56,074 bases of DNA from Actinomycetota bacterium (lineage in GTDB: Bacteria; Actinomycetota; Coriobacteriia; Anaerosomatales; JAUXNU01). The notes beneath the pieces were generated by a model that searched no databases, had not been told where the DNA came from, and saw only the letters and a program-made list of their open reading frames with translations. Of this stretch, positions 7,336-20,209 are shown one piece after another; within the stretch, counting starts at the first letter, position 1, and the number at the start of each line of letters is the position of its first letter. The position numbers were made by a program, and so were the translations under genes. The DNA lies in contig JAUXNU010000173.1 in assembly GCA_030682655.1 (NCBI GenBank), forward strand, positions 1 through 56,074, given 5' to 3'.

Positions 7336-7860
7336 GTGTCCGAGGTGTCCGTCGTGCCCGACCCTGCCAAGTTCTTCGACGCGCTCGCGCTCTCGCCGAT
7401 CGCGGCCGCACAACACTATCCGATCCTGCTCGTCAGCAAGGACGCGATCCCGGCGGCCACGCAGAGCGTCATCGACCAGTTCGACCCCGAGACCGTGGTC
7501 GGCGGCGGCGGCCCCATGACGGTCTCCGCTACCGTGAAGAACTCGCTCGGCGCGCTGCGCTGGTACGGGAGCTCGCGCTACACGACGGCGATCACCGTTG
7601 CGAACAATGCGATCAGCCGGGGCTGGCTATCGGATTCCGCGGTGGGCATTGCGGCGAAGCTGCCGGATGCGCTCACCGGTGGTGGCGTGATCGGCCGAAT
7701 GGGCGGGGTGCTCTTGCTCACGAACGGCGACACGCTCACGACCGAGACCGGCAACTGGATTGCCGCGCACAAGGGCAACATCACGAACTGCTACATCTTC
7801 GGCGGGCCTAACTCGGTGAAATCGGGCGTCGTGAGCGCGGTGAAGGCCAAGCTACAATAG
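7336..7860 (+). CDS. Headless cell-wall-binding repeat 2 (CWB2) protein, probable remnant
   Basis: About 1.7 CWB2 repeats are visible. The first starts abruptly inside the repeat (FFDALALSPIAAAQHYPILL, then VIDQFDPETVV and GGGGPM). A complete second repeat follows (RWYGSSRYTTAITVANNAIS to CYIFGGPNSVKSGVVSAVK). CWB2 domains anchor surface proteins to the wall of clostridia and many actinobacteria. Here no signal peptide or effector region precedes them, although the frame stays open upstream to 7144 in non-conserved sequence. I infer an N-terminally truncated relic; a GTG start at 7336 is the best available. It converges with the multiheme cytochrome gene. Confidence 0.6.
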   Translation: MSEVSVVPDPAKFFDALALSPIAAAQHYPILLVSKDAIPAATQSVIDQFDPETVVGGGGPMTVSATVKNSLGALRWYGSSRYTTAITVANNAISRGWLSDSAVGIAAKLPDALTGGGVIGRMGGVLLLTNGDTLTTETGNWIAAHKGNITNCYIFGGPNSVKSGVVSAVKAKLQ

Positions 7861-7878
7861 GGGAGTCCCCGGCCTCGC

Positions 7879-9100
7879 CTACTGCTGGTGACCGACCCCA
7901 GGGTGACAGCGCATGCACACCGCGTCGAGAGAGTCGGCACTCAGGGCCACGGTCGACCACGTGGACTCCTCCGCGTCGTCGAAAGTGAACGCCTAGAAGC
8001 TTCATGTCGCCGGGTGGTCCCGAGTGCGGGAAGTCCGAGCGGACATCTGCCAAGGAGGACCGGTCGAGGGCGTAGTCCTCGGAGCCGTAGTGGCACCGCA
8101 CACAGGGGTCGCTGCTTGATGCCGGAGCGAGCCCCGATCGGTGACACGTATAGCACTGGCCGGGGCCGCCCCCTGCATCGGGGAGAGGGCACGGGTGCGT
8201 GCGCTCGGCGTGCACGGTGCCGCCGAGCTCCGCTGGGGCTTCCTGCGCGCCTCCCAGCATAAGGTCGTGGCAGTCGGCGCACCACCACGACAGGGTGGAG
8301 GTGTCCACGCGTGTTCGGTCTTGCGCGAAGTCCTGCACCACCCAGCGCGGCCGGGTGGTGGCGACGCCGTTTGCCGTGTAGGTGCCATCAAACGAGCTCG
8401 TCGTGCTGAAGTTGACGCCTGCGCGCGCCGTGTTCTCGATTGCGTTCACGGGAGCTTGCTCGGGGTACGTGCCATCGGAGCGCGGAGCCTGCCCGACTGC
8501 GCCAGAGGGGCTGCGCCTCAGGAGCTTGTAGCCTGCCCCATCAGAGGATGCGTCGCCCGGTTGCCACAGCATCCGGGAGTTTCCATGGGGCTCGTGGCAG
8601 TTCACACACCGGAGCGAGACGGGGCCCACACGCAGCCAGCCGTCGCCGTCCTTGGCGGGAACGAGGCGGTACATCTGCGCGGGCTGCGGGTCGTAGCGGC
8701 GCACGACGATGGCGGAGCGCGTGATGCGCCCACGAGCATCCACGGTTTCGAGCCACACGGTTTCAGCATGCTGGGACGCGGATGAGCCGGGGATCTCCGG
8801 CGCGGCGCCCAGTGTGTGACCCGATGCGGCCATAATGCCTGCGGAATCAGCGTCGTAGACGGAGGTGCCGGAGTGCGTGGACTCAACGTGGCAGTAGATG
8901 CATGCGTCATCGGCGTAGTCCGGGCGCACGAGATCGTAGCCGCCGGCGACGGCGGCATGGCAAACGTCGCAGCGCCCCGACGTGGAGTAGCCTCCGTGTG
9001 GAGATATCGTTTGCAGCTCTTCGGCTGATGCTTGAAGCGGGCTGGATAGGAATGCTGCGAGTGCCACAAGGCAAGCGAGAGCGCGTAGCCCTCCGGTCAT
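7879..9100 (-). CDS. Secreted multiheme c-type cytochrome with C-terminal frameshift
   Basis: A signal peptide (GLRALACLVALAAFLSSP, cleavage near QASAEE) precedes six CxxCH heme-binding motifs in frame: CDVCH, CIYCH, CVNCH, CADCH, CYTCH and CVRCH. After GDMKLLG (about 7993-8008) the frame becomes low-complexity arginine-rich and runs on to a stop at 7808, inside the convergent CWB2 gene. In the neighbouring frame the same DNA encodes DSLDAVCMRCHPGVGHQQ and stops at 7879, giving a seventh CxxCH (7903-7917). A single-base indel near 7985-7996 therefore separates the last heme site. The likely role is extracytoplasmic electron transfer. No partner oxidoreductase is adjacent. Confidence 0.75.
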
Positions 9101-13243: not shown

Positions 13244-13336
13244 GGAGAGGTGGCAGAGTGGTTGAATGCGGCGGTCTCGAAAACCGTTAGGCGGGTATCC
13301 CCCGTCTCGGGGGTTCGAATCCCCCCCTCTCCGCCA
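13244..13336 (+). tRNA. tRNA-Ser (anticodon CGA), CCA encoded
   Basis: The acceptor stem GGAGAGG (13244-13250) pairs with CCTCTCC (13326-13332). It is followed by discriminator G and CCA at 13334-13336. The anticodon stem CGGT/ACCG encloses the loop CTCGAAA, giving anticodon CGA. A long variable arm (GGCGGGTATCCCCCGTC) is typical of serine tRNA, and the T-arm is GGGGG-TTCGAAT-CCCCC. The 3' part from 13276 is the left copy of a long direct repeat repeated at 20142, marking it as an integration site. Confidence 0.95.
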
Positions 13337-13419: not shown

Positions 13420-16119
13420 CTAGTTCAAGTCGACTCTCGTGTGCCCTTTCGTCCAGTGGACCTTCGCGAGGTCGTCCATCAGCCACTGGTAGCAGATCTC
13501 TGTGATCGGTCGCTTGCCGAAGACATCCAGAACCGTCATCGTCACGTCGCCGAGCGCGACATTCGCAAGGTCTGGTCGGTCCTCCGCAGCCTGGCGAGCC
13601 TCGGCGGCGAGATCCTCGAACGCAGGCACTTCGTCAACGATACTGACGGTCACTCGGTTTTCGCTCTCGGTGGGAATGGGGAGGAGATGCCACGTCCCGC
13701 CCGGACCAGGCCAGCCACCTTCGGAGGTCCGCAGGAAGAACCGGAGATCGACCGGGAAGAGCGTGGCCTTCCGTAGGTGCGGCGAGAGAGGTGCAAGAAG
13801 CCCCGTGCTCAACTGCTCGTATGACGACAGCGCACCCGAGTACACGGACTCGACGCGGAGACGCAACTGCTCGTGCGTGAAGAAGCTCCAGACCCAAGAG
13901 GGGGAGCCAGCCGGTCTGGCATCCGGAAGCGGCCACGGCGCCTGGAGGAACTCCTCGCCCGCCTCGGTAAGCGCCGCAAGGTGGGGTATCAGGGCGAGCA
14001 GAGGCTGCTTCAGCCCGGCCGTGGGGCCCACGAAATGGCAGTCCTCTGGCAGGTTGAGTCGCTCGATTGTACGCGTGAGCTCTGCAACGCTGACCGGCTC
14101 ACCGGTCCAGTCTCGACCAAGCACAGTCCTGGCGGCGAGCCAGGCGGCCTCTCTCGCGATTGGGCCTTCGGCAGCGAGAGGTAACCCTTCTCTGAGCAGG
14201 GCGGTCAGCTCATCGCGAATCTCCCCGTGTGCCCAAGACCACGGCCATGCGGGGCTGGGGCTCGGCGCTGCGCTGCGCATGTGTATCCACGGCAAACGAC
14301 GGGGTGCGCCCCACCCGATGTCCTCCTTGGCGAGGGCCACCACTCGGGGCTGGTCAGGAGAGCTCCGGAGCCAGGCGACAGTGAGCATTGGCTCGTCCAC
14401 GTAGGTGCCAACGGCCGCCACATCTCCGCTAGCGTCCACCGGAACAATGAGGTCGCCGAGCTGTCCCAGCGATCCGTGGAAGGCGACCATGGCTTCACGA
14501 ACGAAGAGACCGGCCTCTTCGGAACTCGGGAGCGGAGGTCTTGCGGCCCCTGTCGCGAACTGAGGCGTTCCGGACTCGACAAGATCGCCAACAAGGCCCG
14601 GGTCCACGGCTACGATTGCGCACAAGACGTCGTGGATGAACCTGGTCGGAGCCATGCTCAGCAGAGCGCGCAAAGCTCCGCGCCAGCGGGAGAGACAGTC
14701 GCGGTCCCCAAGGAGTTCCTCCACGGAGACCACGCCCTCGAGTAACGCACGCGCTGCGAACCATTCCTGTAGCAGCATCAATACGAACTGCACGCTGCCG
14801 TTGTCGGCAATGACCAGGCCCGACTCCAGCAGTGGCGTGAGGTCGCCGGTGTGAGGAAGGTCGCGAATCGCCGCAGGTCCGCTCCGCTTGGTCGATTCAA
14901 CAGCCATTACCATCAGCCATCGTTGTGCCTCATCGTACGATCGCAAGCCGTCCCTGAGTGCTCGGACCACTAGATGTTCAACCAGTTCTCCGGTCGTGGT
15001 GGGTGCGTGCGGATTCGTTCTGAGCCAGAGGCCGATCAGCAGCGCAAACAAGGGTAGCGTCGCTGCTTCACGGATGCTTTCGGGCCAGCGAGCAAGGTCC
15101 CACTCACGAAGAGGCCGTCCGGCGCCGACCGAGGCCAGAGACAGGGCCTTTTCAGCAGATAGAGGCTGGAGGCTCACCGACTCGCCCTGGCGGATCTCCA
15201 GCGAAGTCGCCCTGGTTGTCAGGAGCACGGCTGCCTGCATCCTCGCGGCGAGTGCCCTCGATTCGTCGAGAATGCGTCCAGCACTCCCAAGATCTAGTTC
15301 GTCGAGCCCGTCGACTATCAAGGTCAATGCGGGTGAAGGCGGGTTCCCGATAGCGACAACTCGTTTGCGCACTTGGTCAAGTAGATCGGCTTGCGCCAGG
15401 GTGCGCGAATCGAGCCATACCGGTACGGCCTTCGCCTCCGACATGGCAGCGCGGACGGCCCGCTGAAAGACGCTTTCCGCAAGAATCGACTTGCCGGCAC
15501 CGAGTGGGGCAACTAGAACGCCTACGTGACCGGGGCCGAGTGTGCCCTCAGGCAGTGACCGCTGCACAGGCAGAACATCCGAGAGTCGCGCCGCGTCTTC
15601 GGGGGCTACGCCCGCGGCAATCAGCCGCGTGGCAACTCGGTGCTGGGAGCCCGAGAGGAGGCCCTCAAGTAGCGATTGTCGTGTTGGCTCACGGCCGAGC
15701 GTCCGCTCCACCGTTGAAGCCGTCTGCTTGGCAGCAATGAGGGTGCTCATGACCGCGTCTCGCGAGAGAGACTCACGGAAGGCGTTCAGAAACGCGATGG
15801 CAAGAGACTCGTCGTCTGGGTCGCGGCCGTCGAACCGCGACAGCTCAAGCTCGCTCGGCATTGTTGGCTCCCGAATGCCTAGAGCCTCTTCCACCAGGAG
15901 CCGCCAATTCGCCTCACGGGCGAGAAACGACTCGTCGACTGGCGCGATGAGCCCCCAACTAGCATTCGACTCATTGAGCGATGCCAATGCCAAGTCGTAG
16001 GCGGAACGCATGCGTCGTTCAGTCTCCTCGCCAGGATTCGGCCCGCCAAGCAACGGGATCGCGGACACCGCTGAGAGAGCCAGGCCAATTGCCTCGACGA
16101 CTGTCACCCGAGCCCCCAT
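13420..16119 (-). CDS. NACHT-type STAND NTPase, candidate immune sensor
   Basis: About 899 residues. The numbering here counts from the TTG at 16125, which adds two residues. A P-loop module occupies roughly 195-330: Walker A APLGAGKS (206-213), Walker B TLIVDGLDEL (268-277, the NACHT-style GLDEL form) and a sensor-1-like AVLLTTRAT. An N-terminal 190-residue helical region begins with a hydrophobic stretch (about 10-27), and an NTPase-associated winged-helix-like region follows. The C-terminal 500 residues match nothing I know and would be the sensor. Bacterial NACHT proteins are established antiphage sensors, which with the island setting suggests a defence role (inference). The start is either ATG 16119 or TTG 16125; no strong Shine-Dalgarno decides. 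Confidence 0.75.
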   Translation of the reverse strand: MGARVTVVEAIGLALSAVSAIPLLGGPNPGEETERRMRSAYDLALASLNESNASWGLIAPVDESFLAREANWRLLVEEALGIREPTMPSELELSRFDGRDPDDESLAIAFLNAFRESLSRDAVMSTLIAAKQTASTVERTLGREPTRQSLLEGLLSGSQHRVATRLIAAGVAPEDAARLSDVLPVQRSLPEGTLGPGHVGVLVAPLGAGKSILAESVFQRAVRAAMSEAKAVPVWLDSRTLAQADLLDQVRKRVVAIGNPPSPALTLIVDGLDELDLGSAGRILDESRALAARMQAAVLLTTRATSLEIRQGESVSLQPLSAEKALSLASVGAGRPLREWDLARWPESIREAATLPLFALLIGLWLRTNPHAPTTTGELVEHLVVRALRDGLRSYDEAQRWLMVMAVESTKRSGPAAIRDLPHTGDLTPLLESGLVIADNGSVQFVLMLLQEWFAARALLEGVVSVEELLGDRDCLSRWRGALRALLSMAPTRFIHDVLCAIVAVDPGLVGDLVESGTPQFATGAARPPLPSSEEAGLFVREAMVAFHGSLGQLGDLIVPVDASGDVAAVGTYVDEPMLTVAWLRSSPDQPRVVALAKEDIGWGAPRRLPWIHMRSAAPSPSPAWPWSWAHGEIRDELTALLREGLPLAAEGPIAREAAWLAARTVLGRDWTGEPVSVAELTRTIERLNLPEDCHFVGPTAGLKQPLLALIPHLAALTEAGEEFLQAPWPLPDARPAGSPSWVWSFFTHEQLRLRVESVYSGALSSYEQLSTGLLAPLSPHLRKATLFPVDLRFFLRTSEGGWPGPGGTWHLLPIPTESENRVTVSIVDEVPAFEDLAAEARQAAEDRPDLANVALGDVTMTVLDVFGKRPITEICYQWLMDDLAKVHWTKGHTRVDLN

Positions 16120-16125
16120 CACCAA

Positions 16126-16409: not shown

Positions 16410-16595
16410 ATGACCAGCAAGGTGAGAGATCTCCGAAAAGGCCTGCGCATCAGCCGAAACGAGCTTGCACGCAGAGCCGGTCTTACCGCCCAGACAGTAG
16501 CTAGGGCAGAGAAGGGCGAGCCGGTGAGTGAGCTGACCCAGGAGAAGTTGTCCGCTGTGTTCGAGCTTCCTGTCGAGAGTGTCTTCCCTGACTAG
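16410..16595 (+). CDS. Small XRE/Cro-type HTH regulator of the island
   Basis: The 61-residue protein is essentially one XRE helix-turn-helix: VRDLRKGLRISRNELARRAG, LTAQTVARAEKGEPVS, then LSAVFELPVESVFPD. ATG 16410 is used, though the in-frame TTG just before (16407) is possible; AGGAACGG lies upstream. It probably binds the palindrome in its own promoter and so sets expression of the rest of the plus-strand genes, and perhaps of the divergent NACHT gene. Single-domain XRE proteins of this type commonly govern toxin-antitoxin and defence loci. Confidence 0.82.
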   Translation: MTSKVRDLRKGLRISRNELARRAGLTAQTVARAEKGEPVSELTQEKLSAVFELPVESVFPD

Positions 16596-16642
16596 TCGGC
16601 CATGGTATAGTACTCGATTGTCGCAGCATTCAGGAGGAGAGT

Positions 16643-16870
16643 GTGGGAAACATGAGGCTTCGCGTGATACGCAGGGCCAAGTGGACGGTCGCCGACCTCA
16701 GTACACAGGAGGTGCGTGGTGATCGCGCTGGTGCGACCGTACCGAGTGGCGGTGACGGGTCGTGCTTCGATGATTCGCGCGCTCTTGAGCATGCGGCGAA
16801 TTCGGCGATGCAGAACCGGACGGCACTTAGCGAGTCGCTAGATCTAGCGCGACGCCTGCTGCACGGCTGA
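16643..16870 (+). CDS. 75-residue island orphan
   Basis: No family recognised. It starts with GTG at 16643, five bases after AGGAGG, which is a strong ribosome site and the best evidence that it is real. The N-terminus is basic (MRLRVIRRAKWTVADLS), the middle is Gly/Ser-rich, and the last 25 residues form a helix (ALEHAANSAM to LARRLLHG). A TATAGT at 16605-16610 could give it a separate promoter. It sits between the HTH regulator and the metallopeptidase-like gene, so it may be an immunity or adaptor protein (speculative). Confidence 0.5.
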   Translation: MGNMRLRVIRRAKWTVADLSTQEVRGDRAGATVPSGGDGSCFDDSRALEHAANSAMQNRTALSESLDLARRLLHG

Positions 16871-16947
16871 GCCAGCCTCACGTTGGGGTTTGCGCTGTCG
16901 GAGTCGGGGCTTGCCTCGGCTCCTTGCCTTGGGGGTCAGGGGATGAA

Positions 16948-19071
16948 ATGCGGCTTCTCGTTCCGGGATACCACATCGGTTTGTACCGCATCAGGCCCGG
17001 GCACGAGCCTGATGCGGAAGCGCGGCTGCTAGAGGCAGGAGTCCTGTGTTTCCGAGCCCTCGGGACCTTCGATCTCGTGGCATTCAGGCCGCTTGGTCTG
17101 CTGGACGAACGCTTTGACCTGATTCTGCCGAGTGACCTGCTTGGCTGGTGGGACATCAGGTGCTTCCAGTCGGATCTGGATCCCGAGCCTCTGATTGACT
17201 GGCTCGCCGCACAACCGTGCCTGACACTCACCCTCGCGAAACTTCGCCCCCATAAGGGCACAGTCGTGCAGCTCTCCGACGAGATGGAAACCGTTGAGTC
17301 AGTGGTAGGGGGGTACGCAAGTCGAGTCCTCCATACCTTGGGTTGGCATGAGCTTGCAGTTCTGGGCGGCGGTCGGGATCTTGGTGCGTTGCTTGGTGAG
17401 GTCACCGACTTGCGACAGACGCTTTCGTCGAACCTGAGCGCGACTATTACCATTCCGCTCTTCTCGACCGCGGATACTCTCCTAGCTCAATGCGAGGGTG
17501 ATCTTTCGTGTGTGGTCGGGGTTCGTTCTCGTCCAGCCGCGGAAGCAACAGTGGCGGACTACTGGTCATCACGGGGCGAGCTATCGAACGTCTACGGTGA
17601 CCGCGATGTCCTTGTGCGGAGAGATGGGGTTTCGGCAGAGCAATTGATGGGAGAGATTTCTGACTTCCGGAAGCAGTTCGCTGACAGCGGCCTGGTGGAT
17701 ACGTCGACCGAGGTCGTAAGCCCTCTTGCGCAAGGGGCGAGCAGTCCGCCGATCGCCACGGAGTCGCTCTTGTCGGCTGCGGCTGAAGCGCTTGCCGATG
17801 AACTGGCGGCGATTCCATGCACGGACGTGGAGACAGCCAACGCAGCCGTTTCTATGGGCTCGACCCTGGCGGTTCTATCCAGGGATTTCGGGCTCGGCTC
17901 GCTTGGGGTTGAGCAGGTGGCGTCCTTCCAGCTCCTCCTTGAGGAGATTCAGGCCGAGGATCCGGGCGCAGTGCCCGGTAGACGCGTCGGCTTCCGCATC
18001 AGGCTCCTGCGCGCCCTGCGCAACCTTGAGCTATCGCTAGTCCAACGGTCTGGCCAGTCGGACGATAGCAGCATCACTGGCAGTGGTCTGCTCGGACCAT
18101 TCTCTCTGACGGGCGCTGACGCGAGGTTGGCGGCTGCCGCCGCGGCTTGTCCCTTCGAGCTACTGCTCGCGCTCAAGGAGGACGGCCGACCGACGGTACC
18201 CAGGTTCAACGTGGTGTTCGGAGGCTCGTATTCGCCGGCGTACCTTGATGGGACAATCTCCTATCCGCAGACGGTCTGCTATCGTCCGGGCGAGGAGTGG
18301 TGGCGTATCGGGCACGAGGTTGCACACGCATGGTACGGCTTGTCTGACTTCAAGAACCTCCACCGTGCGACATTCGAGGATCTTGAAGACCATATGCGCG
18401 AGTGCCTTGGGGACTTCATGACGGTGTACCCACTCCATTTCGACACCTGGATGGAAGAGCTGTACGCCCAGTGGTTCGACTACAACATCTGCTTCCAGCG
18501 CAACAGAGACCTGTATCTTCGGGCAATCTGGACCGCCTGGATCAAGGTTCCCCGTGTGTGGGACCGCGGTACGGAATACCTGCTCCGGTCACTGTGTATG
18601 TTCTGCTACGACTGTCTTGAAGAGTGGGACGCGACCGCGACCGACGAGACCCGCTACATATCTTGGTTGGAAGGCAAATTCCAGGAGATGACTGAGCTAG
18701 TTCGTGGGACGGTGCCAGGGTTCAACGAGCTCCTCAAGAATGCGCGTCACCACGTGAACCAGATTCTTACTCTCGCAGCAGTGTACGGACTTCCTACCCT
18801 TGCATTCTTCAGTTCGCAAGAGGTGCAGCTTAGGGCACTGTTCGAGCCCCCCAAAATGGCGGCAATCCTTTCGCAGGTGGACATCCTCGCGGACGGTGGC
18901 CTGCTCGAAACCATGCAAGACATACCTCAGACTCTTGTGGAGGTGTATCGGCGCACCGCGGATGGCGCTTGGTGTGGCACTGCTGACGCAGCGCTGGTGC
19001 TCTCCCTCTGGAACTACGTGAACGTGGTCGAAGGCTCGATTGCCTCGTCGCTTGACGACTACAAGGAGTAG
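16948..19071 (+). CDS. HExxH metallopeptidase-like protein with N-terminal sensor-like repeats
   Basis: A 707-residue protein of no named family I recognise. The zinc-peptidase motif is HEVAH (H456, E457, H460) in the context EEWWRIGHEVAHAWYGL. About 43 residues on lies EELYAQWFDY (E503/E504), a plausible third-ligand helix as in gluzincin- or ImmA-type peptidases. The first 260 residues contain segments that look like repeated ferredoxin-like/RAM (AsnC-type) units, for example GWHELAVLGGGRDLGALLG and YGDRDVLVRRDGVSAEQLMG followed by GLVDTSTEVV. This is inference from pattern only. There is no signal peptide, so it is cytoplasmic. ATG 16948 follows AGGGGAT; an upstream TTG frame is less likely. 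The alarmone synthetase starts 5 bp after its stop. Confidence 0.72.
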   Translation: MRLLVPGYHIGLYRIRPGHEPDAEARLLEAGVLCFRALGTFDLVAFRPLGLLDERFDLILPSDLLGWWDIRCFQSDLDPEPLIDWLAAQPCLTLTLAKLRPHKGTVVQLSDEMETVESVVGGYASRVLHTLGWHELAVLGGGRDLGALLGEVTDLRQTLSSNLSATITIPLFSTADTLLAQCEGDLSCVVGVRSRPAAEATVADYWSSRGELSNVYGDRDVLVRRDGVSAEQLMGEISDFRKQFADSGLVDTSTEVVSPLAQGASSPPIATESLLSAAAEALADELAAIPCTDVETANAAVSMGSTLAVLSRDFGLGSLGVEQVASFQLLLEEIQAEDPGAVPGRRVGFRIRLLRALRNLELSLVQRSGQSDDSSITGSGLLGPFSLTGADARLAAAAAACPFELLLALKEDGRPTVPRFNVVFGGSYSPAYLDGTISYPQTVCYRPGEEWWRIGHEVAHAWYGLSDFKNLHRATFEDLEDHMRECLGDFMTVYPLHFDTWMEELYAQWFDYNICFQRNRDLYLRAIWTAWIKVPRVWDRGTEYLLRSLCMFCYDCLEEWDATATDETRYISWLEGKFQEMTELVRGTVPGFNELLKNARHHVNQILTLAAVYGLPTLAFFSSQEVQLRALFEPPKMAAILSQVDILADGGLLETMQDIPQTLVEVYRRTADGAWCGTADAALVLSLWNYVNVVEGSIASSLDDYKE

Positions 19072-19076
19072 CGGCA

Positions 19077-20066
19077 GTGAACGTGCAGCCGAGGAGGATA
19101 CGAACTGACTACGAGAAGCGACTACCGCTGCTAGAGGGGTTTCGTGAGTCGACAGTGTTCGTAGTGGCCAGGGAGTTGCGGCTCTCCAGAGTGGAGTACC
19201 TTCGCGTCGAGTCCCGGGTCAAGGAGTTGAAGTCCATCATCGAGAAGGCCGAGAGGAAGGGTGTGAGCGACCCCCTCGATGCCTTTGATGACATCGTTGG
19301 ACTCAGGGTGGTCACATACCTGAAGCGCGACATCGAGACCGTCAAGGCCGCCATGGCTTCATGCCTCGACGTCATAAAGATCGACGACAAAGTCAACGAG
19401 CTGCCCACACCCGAGAACTTCGACTACCAAGCCATCCACCTGACATTTCGGTTGCGCGATCACTACAAGGGACCTCACTACGACGATTTCAAAGGCATGG
19501 TCGGAGAACTCCAAATCCGGTCCGCGGCCATGGATGCCTGGGCCGTCGTCGCACACGGGCTCGCGTACAGGTCCGACCAGGAGTTGCCCCCCGAACTCCG
19601 GCGCAAGCTCGCAGCCGTCAGCGCCGGGTACTACATGGCAGACGAAGCCTTGGACGATGTGGCGAACGCCAGCGATGCTTTGCGGGAAGACTGGGAGCGG
19701 GCAATCGCCGAGGCGGACCTCGCGGCGGTTGGGGTCAACACACTCTCGCTCACCGAGTACTTGTCGCTTCGGCTCTCCGCCCGCAGGGTGACCGACGCCG
19801 CGATTGTTGCAGGTATTGCCTCTGAGCTCGCCTGTCACGGATACGCCACGATGGACCAAGTGGAGGCGTCTCTTGGCTTCGGGCTGAAGGCAGCCGAAGC
19901 CCTGGAGAGTGATCGGTTGGCCCGAGAGGAAAGGACAGCGCCCTACTCTGCTGGTCCTTTCTTGCTGCTGGCCGTCAACCTAGCTGACGTTGAGTTCGCT
20001 TCGAGGCACGGGGAAGACGTGCTCGTGCGCGAGAGAGATCAGTTTGCCCACCTTGTGAAGGACTGA
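19077..20066 (+). CDS. RelA/SpoT-domain nucleotide pyrophosphokinase, candidate toxSAS-like effector
   Basis: A 329-residue protein with a RelA/SpoT synthetase domain and no HD hydrolase domain. Visible motifs are SRVKELKSIIEKAERKG (46-62), DDIVGLRVV (71-79, catalytic Asp), FDYQAIHLTF (116-125), ELQIRS (144-149, catalytic Glu) and AWAVVAHGLAYR (154-165). The catalytic residues look intact. A roughly 150-residue C-terminal region is unassigned. Such small alarmone synthetases make (p)ppGpp-type nucleotides, or in toxSAS/CapRel relatives modify other RNA or nucleotide targets. It has a GTG start directly after the metallopeptidase stop, so the pair is an operon; it would be a natural growth-arrest effector. 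Confidence 0.85.
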   Translation: MNVQPRRIRTDYEKRLPLLEGFRESTVFVVARELRLSRVEYLRVESRVKELKSIIEKAERKGVSDPLDAFDDIVGLRVVTYLKRDIETVKAAMASCLDVIKIDDKVNELPTPENFDYQAIHLTFRLRDHYKGPHYDDFKGMVGELQIRSAAMDAWAVVAHGLAYRSDQELPPELRRKLAAVSAGYYMADEALDDVANASDALREDWERAIAEADLAAVGVNTLSLTEYLSLRLSARRVTDAAIVAGIASELACHGYATMDQVEASLGFGLKAAEALESDRLAREERTAPYSAGPFLLLAVNLADVEFASRHGEDVLVRERDQFAHLVKD

Positions 20067-20141
20067 AGTTGGGCTCTTGGCATTTCGCTCGTGCAGCTTG
20101 GCTCAACCGAGCAGATGTGTGAATCCGTACCGACGATCCCC

Positions 20142-20209
20142 CTCGAAAACCGTTAGGCGGGTATCCCCCGTCTCGGGGGTTCGAATCCCCCCTCTCCGCC
20201 AGGACGAAC
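20142..20209 (+). repeat. Right direct repeat: orphan 3' fragment of tRNA-Ser
   Basis: It repeats 13276-13344 from the anticodon loop to beyond CCA. It has six instead of seven C residues at the T-stem/acceptor junction and no 5' half, so it cannot fold as a tRNA. It is interpreted as the far attachment site of the island. Confidence 0.85.

Follow-up and report, generated by a model that had tools for sequence, protein, structure and literature searches.

Avs proteins follow a three-part plan in which an N-terminal effector, a central STAND NTPase and a C-terminal sensor are joined in one chain (PMC12931631). Bacterial NACHT (bNACHT) proteins fall into many clades that differ at the C-terminus; examples are SNaCT, which is found in clade 14, and NCH1, which occurs with a PD-(D/E)XK nuclease in clade 6 (PMC12169576). 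EAD-coupled STAND conflict systems have also been reported (PMC7159879, PMC8195603), and the described EAD10 system has TPR, GreA/B-C and PIN modules (PMC8195603). We analyzed a 56,074-nucleotide stretch of DNA (the window; contig JAUXNU010000173.1) from a bacterium of the Actinomycetota, in which the gene at 13420-16119 on the minus strand encodes a STAND (NACHT-type) NTPase of about 900 aa. Going by its sequence and by analogy with studied systems, this gene probably encodes an NLR-like immune receptor, a switch of the type on which immune receptors of animals and plants rely, in which the C-terminus would sense, the NTPase would switch, and the N-terminus would execute.

Like Avs (AVAST) systems such as Avs5, the window family shows a tripartite plan and one receptor plan with different effectors. 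Unlike Avs, its NTPase and C-terminus have no PADLOC or PDB Avs match, and its C-terminus forms no recognized TPR array; P0001 gave no PADLOC model, the matches to ten members included no Avs model, and no PDB Avs chain appeared up to E 10. The bNACHT proteins likewise combine a NACHT-like NTPase with an effector at the N-terminus and a separate domain at the C-terminus (PMC12169576); the window family differs from them by a 436-aa C-terminus without a library match and by an NTPase that lies below the Pfam NACHT cut-off. The outcome that the earlier note had named as refuting its reading, membership of a characterized bNACHT clade sharing this C-terminus, did not turn up in searches of Pfam, NCBIfam, PADLOC and PDB, and it is against these libraries that the family stands apart. 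Measured on the literature side against openly licensed papers, this is a new, unnamed clade of putative STAND receptors of the NACHT type whose presumed sensor region is uncatalogued, a reading with good comparative evidence behind it.

The reading frame, taken from the ORF list, starts at an ATG at 16119 (alternative TTG at 16125) and stops at 13420-13422. Within the same order, a full-length homologue was found in only 2 of 60 relatives, genomes G039 and G024; because these homologues (56% and 46% identical, respectively) have no internal stops, the gene is not a chance ORF. The protein consists of a helical N-terminus (residues 1-169; 15619-16125), a NACHT-type NTPase with helical and winged-helix parts (residues 170-465; 14731-15618) and an unrecognized C-terminal region (residues 466-901; 13423-14730), all encoded on the minus strand.

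The earlier note had called the ATPase core clear. Its two motifs, APLGAGKS and IVDGLDEL, are indeed present and conserved in relatives, whereas the match to the Pfam NACHT family is sub-threshold. In the motif table and alignment, Walker A (PLGAGKS, residues 207-213; 15487-15507, minus strand) fits GxxGxGK[ST], the GxGK[ST] part of which is kept in every member covering that region. Walker B (IVDGLDEL, residues 270-277; 15295-15318, minus strand) extends to LIVDGLDEL and fits hhhhDGhDE; it is altered in some relatives, to INATDEN in Nostoc and to DGAEE or DGLEE in members from three actinobacterial genomes of one family, which we call Rubrobacter-like as a label only. A sensor-1 Arg stands at residue 305 and a conserved Pro at residue 358, and the motif table places the winged-helix motif FVLMLLQEWFAA at residues 447-458 (14752-14787, minus strand), where it fits the F..(Q)E[WF]FAA-like ending that is a hallmark of NACHT. 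Walker A and B, the sensor-1 Arg, the conserved Pro and the winged-helix motif are all expected in the NACHT branch of STAND NTPases, and Walker A, a DG.DE Walker B, the Arg, the Pro and an EWFAA winged helix recur across the family. The window NTPase scored 14.8 bits against a gathering score of 26.7 bits for Pfam NACHT (PF05729), a cut-off that none of the members scanned passed (best relative, 20.3 bits). The label NACHT is thus based on the motifs together with the sub-threshold Pfam match.

The C-terminal region, described in the earlier note as 500 residues of no recognized family, is real as an unrecognized region but shorter, with about 436 residues (466-901) past the winged helix. The lack of WD40, TPR and LRR patterns was borne out at the level of Pfam, which is blank over this region in all members scanned and gives no repeat family, such as the TPR-like one of Avs1-5 sensors, in any of them. 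The region had no library match in Pfam (members scanned), NCBIfam (three members) or PHROGs (window protein), no PADLOC match, and no match to PDB by sequence. It is nonetheless homologous across 14 proteins of three phyla (Actinomycetota, Bacillota and Cyanobacteriota), always behind the NTPase (alignment A2). When each protein was searched with a profile of the remaining C-termini, all 14 members were recovered at E values between 5e-32 and 2e-126, whereas shuffled copies reached at most 6.8 bits. Recurring motifs are PWPxPD and, near the end, (P)xTxxxYxWLxxDLK. Structure prediction, which the earlier note had proposed with a view to beta-sandwich or helical sensor folds, was carried out and gave no usable fold: with an input alignment of three sequences, the mean AlphaFold2 pLDDT was 45 for the full protein and 48 for the C-terminus, and at this low confidence both models suggest a mixed alpha/beta C-terminus. 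A sensor role is assigned to the region because of its position and by elimination.

The NTPase and C-terminus were found together in Nostoc, Priestia, Niallia, Clostridium, Gordonia, Microbacterium and Rhodococcus by plasmid search and genome scans, and in four further actinobacterial genomes, three of them from one family. Occurrence is patchy (5 of 396 genomes), these distribution figures being drawn from samples of genomes. Some relatives are plasmid-borne, and an annotated SduA occurs among the neighborhoods. Neither phage records nor viral contigs yielded a relative. A match in Roseibium (L008) was dropped, as it aligned only over query residues 209-398, within the NTPase core, and had a different architecture of its own. 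On a Rhodococcus pseudokoreensis plasmid (L021:4184-5579), a TIR/SEFIR gene is followed by an NTPase fragment of the same family, apparently a decayed copy.

The N-terminal slot varies among these relatives. In Clostridium, a SEFIR/TIR domain matching PADLOC bSEFIR (9e-47) lies on the ORF directly upstream, with a frame break before the NTPase. The N-terminus of the Rhodococcus p52 member is an HNH endonuclease matching CBASS effectors (9.9e-28), that of the Priestia member an alpha/beta hydrolase matching LmuA (1.5e-17), and that of the Nostoc member an EAD10 domain (1.6e-22). The slot in relatives holds the effector domains of bSEFIR, CBASS HNH effectors and Lamassu LmuA (in Clostridium, in the neighboring frame-broken ORF), coupled to the STAND module instead of SAVED or Lamassu partners; none of these domains occurs in the window protein. 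As in the EAD-coupled STAND conflict systems (PMC7159879, PMC8195603), the Nostoc relative has EAD10 and lies beside an EAD10-caspase gene and an EAD10-CHAT gene, the caspase matching EAD10 weakly at its C-terminus and the CHAT protein matching it at the N-terminus (4.7e-33); the EAD10 system of PMC8195603 lacks the NTPase and C-terminus of the window family. The Nostoc plasmid region (L013:3256-10788), in which a caspase, a CHAT and a STAND gene all bear EAD10, is a putative EAD10-wired death module. In Clostridium cibarium, a defence cluster (L007:5901-15401) holds an ATPase/HNH pair (PDC-M62A/B) adjoining the frame-broken SEFIR-STAND homologue, along with a protein of 1019 aa that PADLOC left unmatched.

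The window protein opens with the hydrophobic stretch that the earlier note had pointed out: its highest 19-residue Kyte-Doolittle mean, 1.93, falls at residue 7, and the N-terminal values for G039 and G024 are 1.65 and 1.72. In the window protein, G039, G024, L027, L028 and Microbacterium, N-terminal hydrophobicity peaks right at the start. The helical N-terminus itself, blank in Pfam and without a library match, is shared only by the window protein, G039 and G024; the Microbacterium and two Rubrobacter-like members also open hydrophobically, with no detectable homology to it. Leave-one-out searches with the N-termini gave only two small clusters, the remaining N-termini being mutually unrelated. 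The idea of a single domain for all helical N-termini found no support, as the window and Rubrobacter-like clusters did not match each other (hhalign probability 0.6%). A constant C-terminus with swapped effectors follows an Avs-like logic, and for this reason we read the protein as a putative abortive-infection STAND receptor.

The receptor gene is carried on an island of 6.87 kb, at each end of which stands one copy of an exact 51-bp repeat matching the 3′ portion of tRNA-Ser(CGA). The tRNA gene, the integration target, is at 13244-13336 on the plus strand; the left, attL-like repeat spans 13276-13326 and is identical at 51 of 51 positions to the right, attR-like repeat at 20142-20192, beyond which similarity extends to about 20208 (both plus strand). 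The conserved right-end sequence of the island is GTGAATCCGTACCGACGATCCCCCTCGAAAAC (20119-20150, plus strand); GTGAATCCGTACCGAYRATCCCC, just outside the repeat, is common to the window and G039 islands. Together with the tRNA core, the right-end sequence turned up in 9 of the 69 genomes of the order (≤3 mismatches; reversed control, 0), so that eight genomes besides that of the window carry it, with different cargo where read. By inspection, no integrase-like ORF was found between the island repeats, and the window's genome has eight recombinase matches, all of them on other contigs. Direct repeats of a tRNA 3′ part also flank the integrase-less cargo of cis-mobilizable elements, a name used here by analogy for a putatively mobile arrangement.

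The G039 homologue occupies the same position, directly beside tRNA-Ser(CGA), within a 25.2-kb element that carries two integrase-family genes, a Prim-Pol/DUF3987 protein, a PLD-helicase and an Abi_2 gene. Other islands carry AbiEi/AbiEii (G054, 3.3 kb), Fic (G058, 1.5 kb) or, in an 18-kb island, genes that by eye resemble a type I restriction system (G004), and G013 holds tandem island copies. The tRNA-Ser(CGA) islands (that of the window, L048, L050, L051, L052, L038) form an order-wide family of 1.5 to 25 kb, some with defence or toxin-antitoxin cargo. Several, that of the window included, have no recognizable integrase. Because island ends are shared, cargo varies, and a recognizable integrase is often lacking, we regard the receptor gene as cargo of a mobile-looking hotspot.

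The remaining cargo of the window island is encoded on the plus strand: an Xre/Cro-type HTH gene (16410-16595; PF01381, 1.5e-07), a small ORF of 75 aa without a match (16643-16870), a 715-aa protein with a zincin-like HEVAH motif and no Pfam family (16924-19071), and a 329-aa RelA/SpoT-domain protein (19077-20066; PF04607, 4.2e-18) that resembles small alarmone synthetases and has YjbM-type relatives in PDB. With the Xre-type HTH gene and the HEVAH gene leading to the RelA/SpoT gene 5 bp later, 16410-20066 looks like a toxin-antitoxin-like alarmone synthetase operon. Near the island, at 7808-9100, the window also holds a gene with CxxCH motifs, as in multiheme cytochromes.

Since all four genes sit on one 6.87-kb island, the NTPase, the HTH protein, the HEVAH protein and the RelA/SpoT protein might form one multi-gene defence system. 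This is very improbable: the NTPase is transcribed away from the other three, the 715-aa gene is missing where the NTPase recurs in G039 and G024, and the search for plasmid homologues of the 715-aa product gave none. A single system of NTPase, HEVAH and RelA/SpoT proteins was rejected for want of co-occurrence, and as the HTH, HEVAH and RelA/SpoT genes do not travel with the NTPase in relatives, they are probably separate cargo. Many bacterial STAND proteins are regulators, and a transcriptional or developmental switch of the MalT or AfsR type would be a precedent for the NTPase outside defence. Yet no DNA-binding domain was found in any member scanned, the recognized N-termini are bSEFIR, an HNH nuclease, an LmuA-like hydrolase and EAD10, and the genes sit on plasmids and islands, which leaves a regulatory role with very little probability.

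A stronger competitor, though still an unlikely one, is placement in a STAND clade already on record (bNACHT, Avs or another) with a described C-terminal domain that the libraries searched lack. Bacterial NACHT proteins are already divided into many clades with assorted C-termini (PMC12169576), and STAND systems with exchangeable N-termini have been surveyed (PMC8195603). However, the PADLOC matches assigned to a protein were N-terminal effectors only, with none in the NTPase or C-terminus, NCBIfam and PDB gave no match, and because all members fall below the Pfam NACHT cut-off, Pfam-based surveys and collections could miss the clade.

The tripartite architecture, the conserved C-terminus, the swapped N-termini and the mobile-island setting were observed directly; from them we infer ligand binding, oligomerization, membrane action and phage defence for an NLR-like receptor whose tail probably detects viruses. 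By analogy with studied STAND proteins, the 436-residue C-terminal region would bind an invader-derived molecule or sense a disturbance, and the NTPase would then swap nucleotide and oligomerize through its helical and winged-helix parts. Clustering would switch on the N-terminal domain and stop the infected cell. In relatives, the output of this slot would be a SEFIR/TIR, HNH nuclease, hydrolase or caspase-recruiting EAD10 module. In the window protein, clustered N-terminal helices may insert into the membrane and disrupt it, a guess from hydropathy made because the first N-terminal segment has the hydrophobicity needed for membrane entry. Taken to its full extent, the reading would make this a new receptor clade with a C-terminal fold unseen in other immune sensors that recognizes an undescribed invader component, the window form killing through its N-terminal hydrophobic helices by an oligomeric membrane funnel, much as CC-NLR resistosomes of plants have a funnel's counterpart in bacteria; this picture is speculative and rather unlikely.

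The suggestion in the earlier note of a new sensor/effector pairing is therefore resolved by half. A new sensor is well supported by a C-terminus that is conserved, uncatalogued, present in three phyla and coupled to exchangeable defence effectors; the effector half is not, because the window N-terminal domain matches nothing and its activity is inferred. As the same sensor occurs with known effectors (SEFIR, HNH, LmuA-like and EAD10), the sensed molecule could be sought in a tractable member with the effector of the window protein unsolved. With this family, bacterial NLR-like immunity would gain a receptor clade whose sensor region spans phyla and has no model. The finding also draws attention to tRNA-Ser(CGA) as a hotspot, in an actinobacterial order that has been little studied, for small islands that often lack an integrase.
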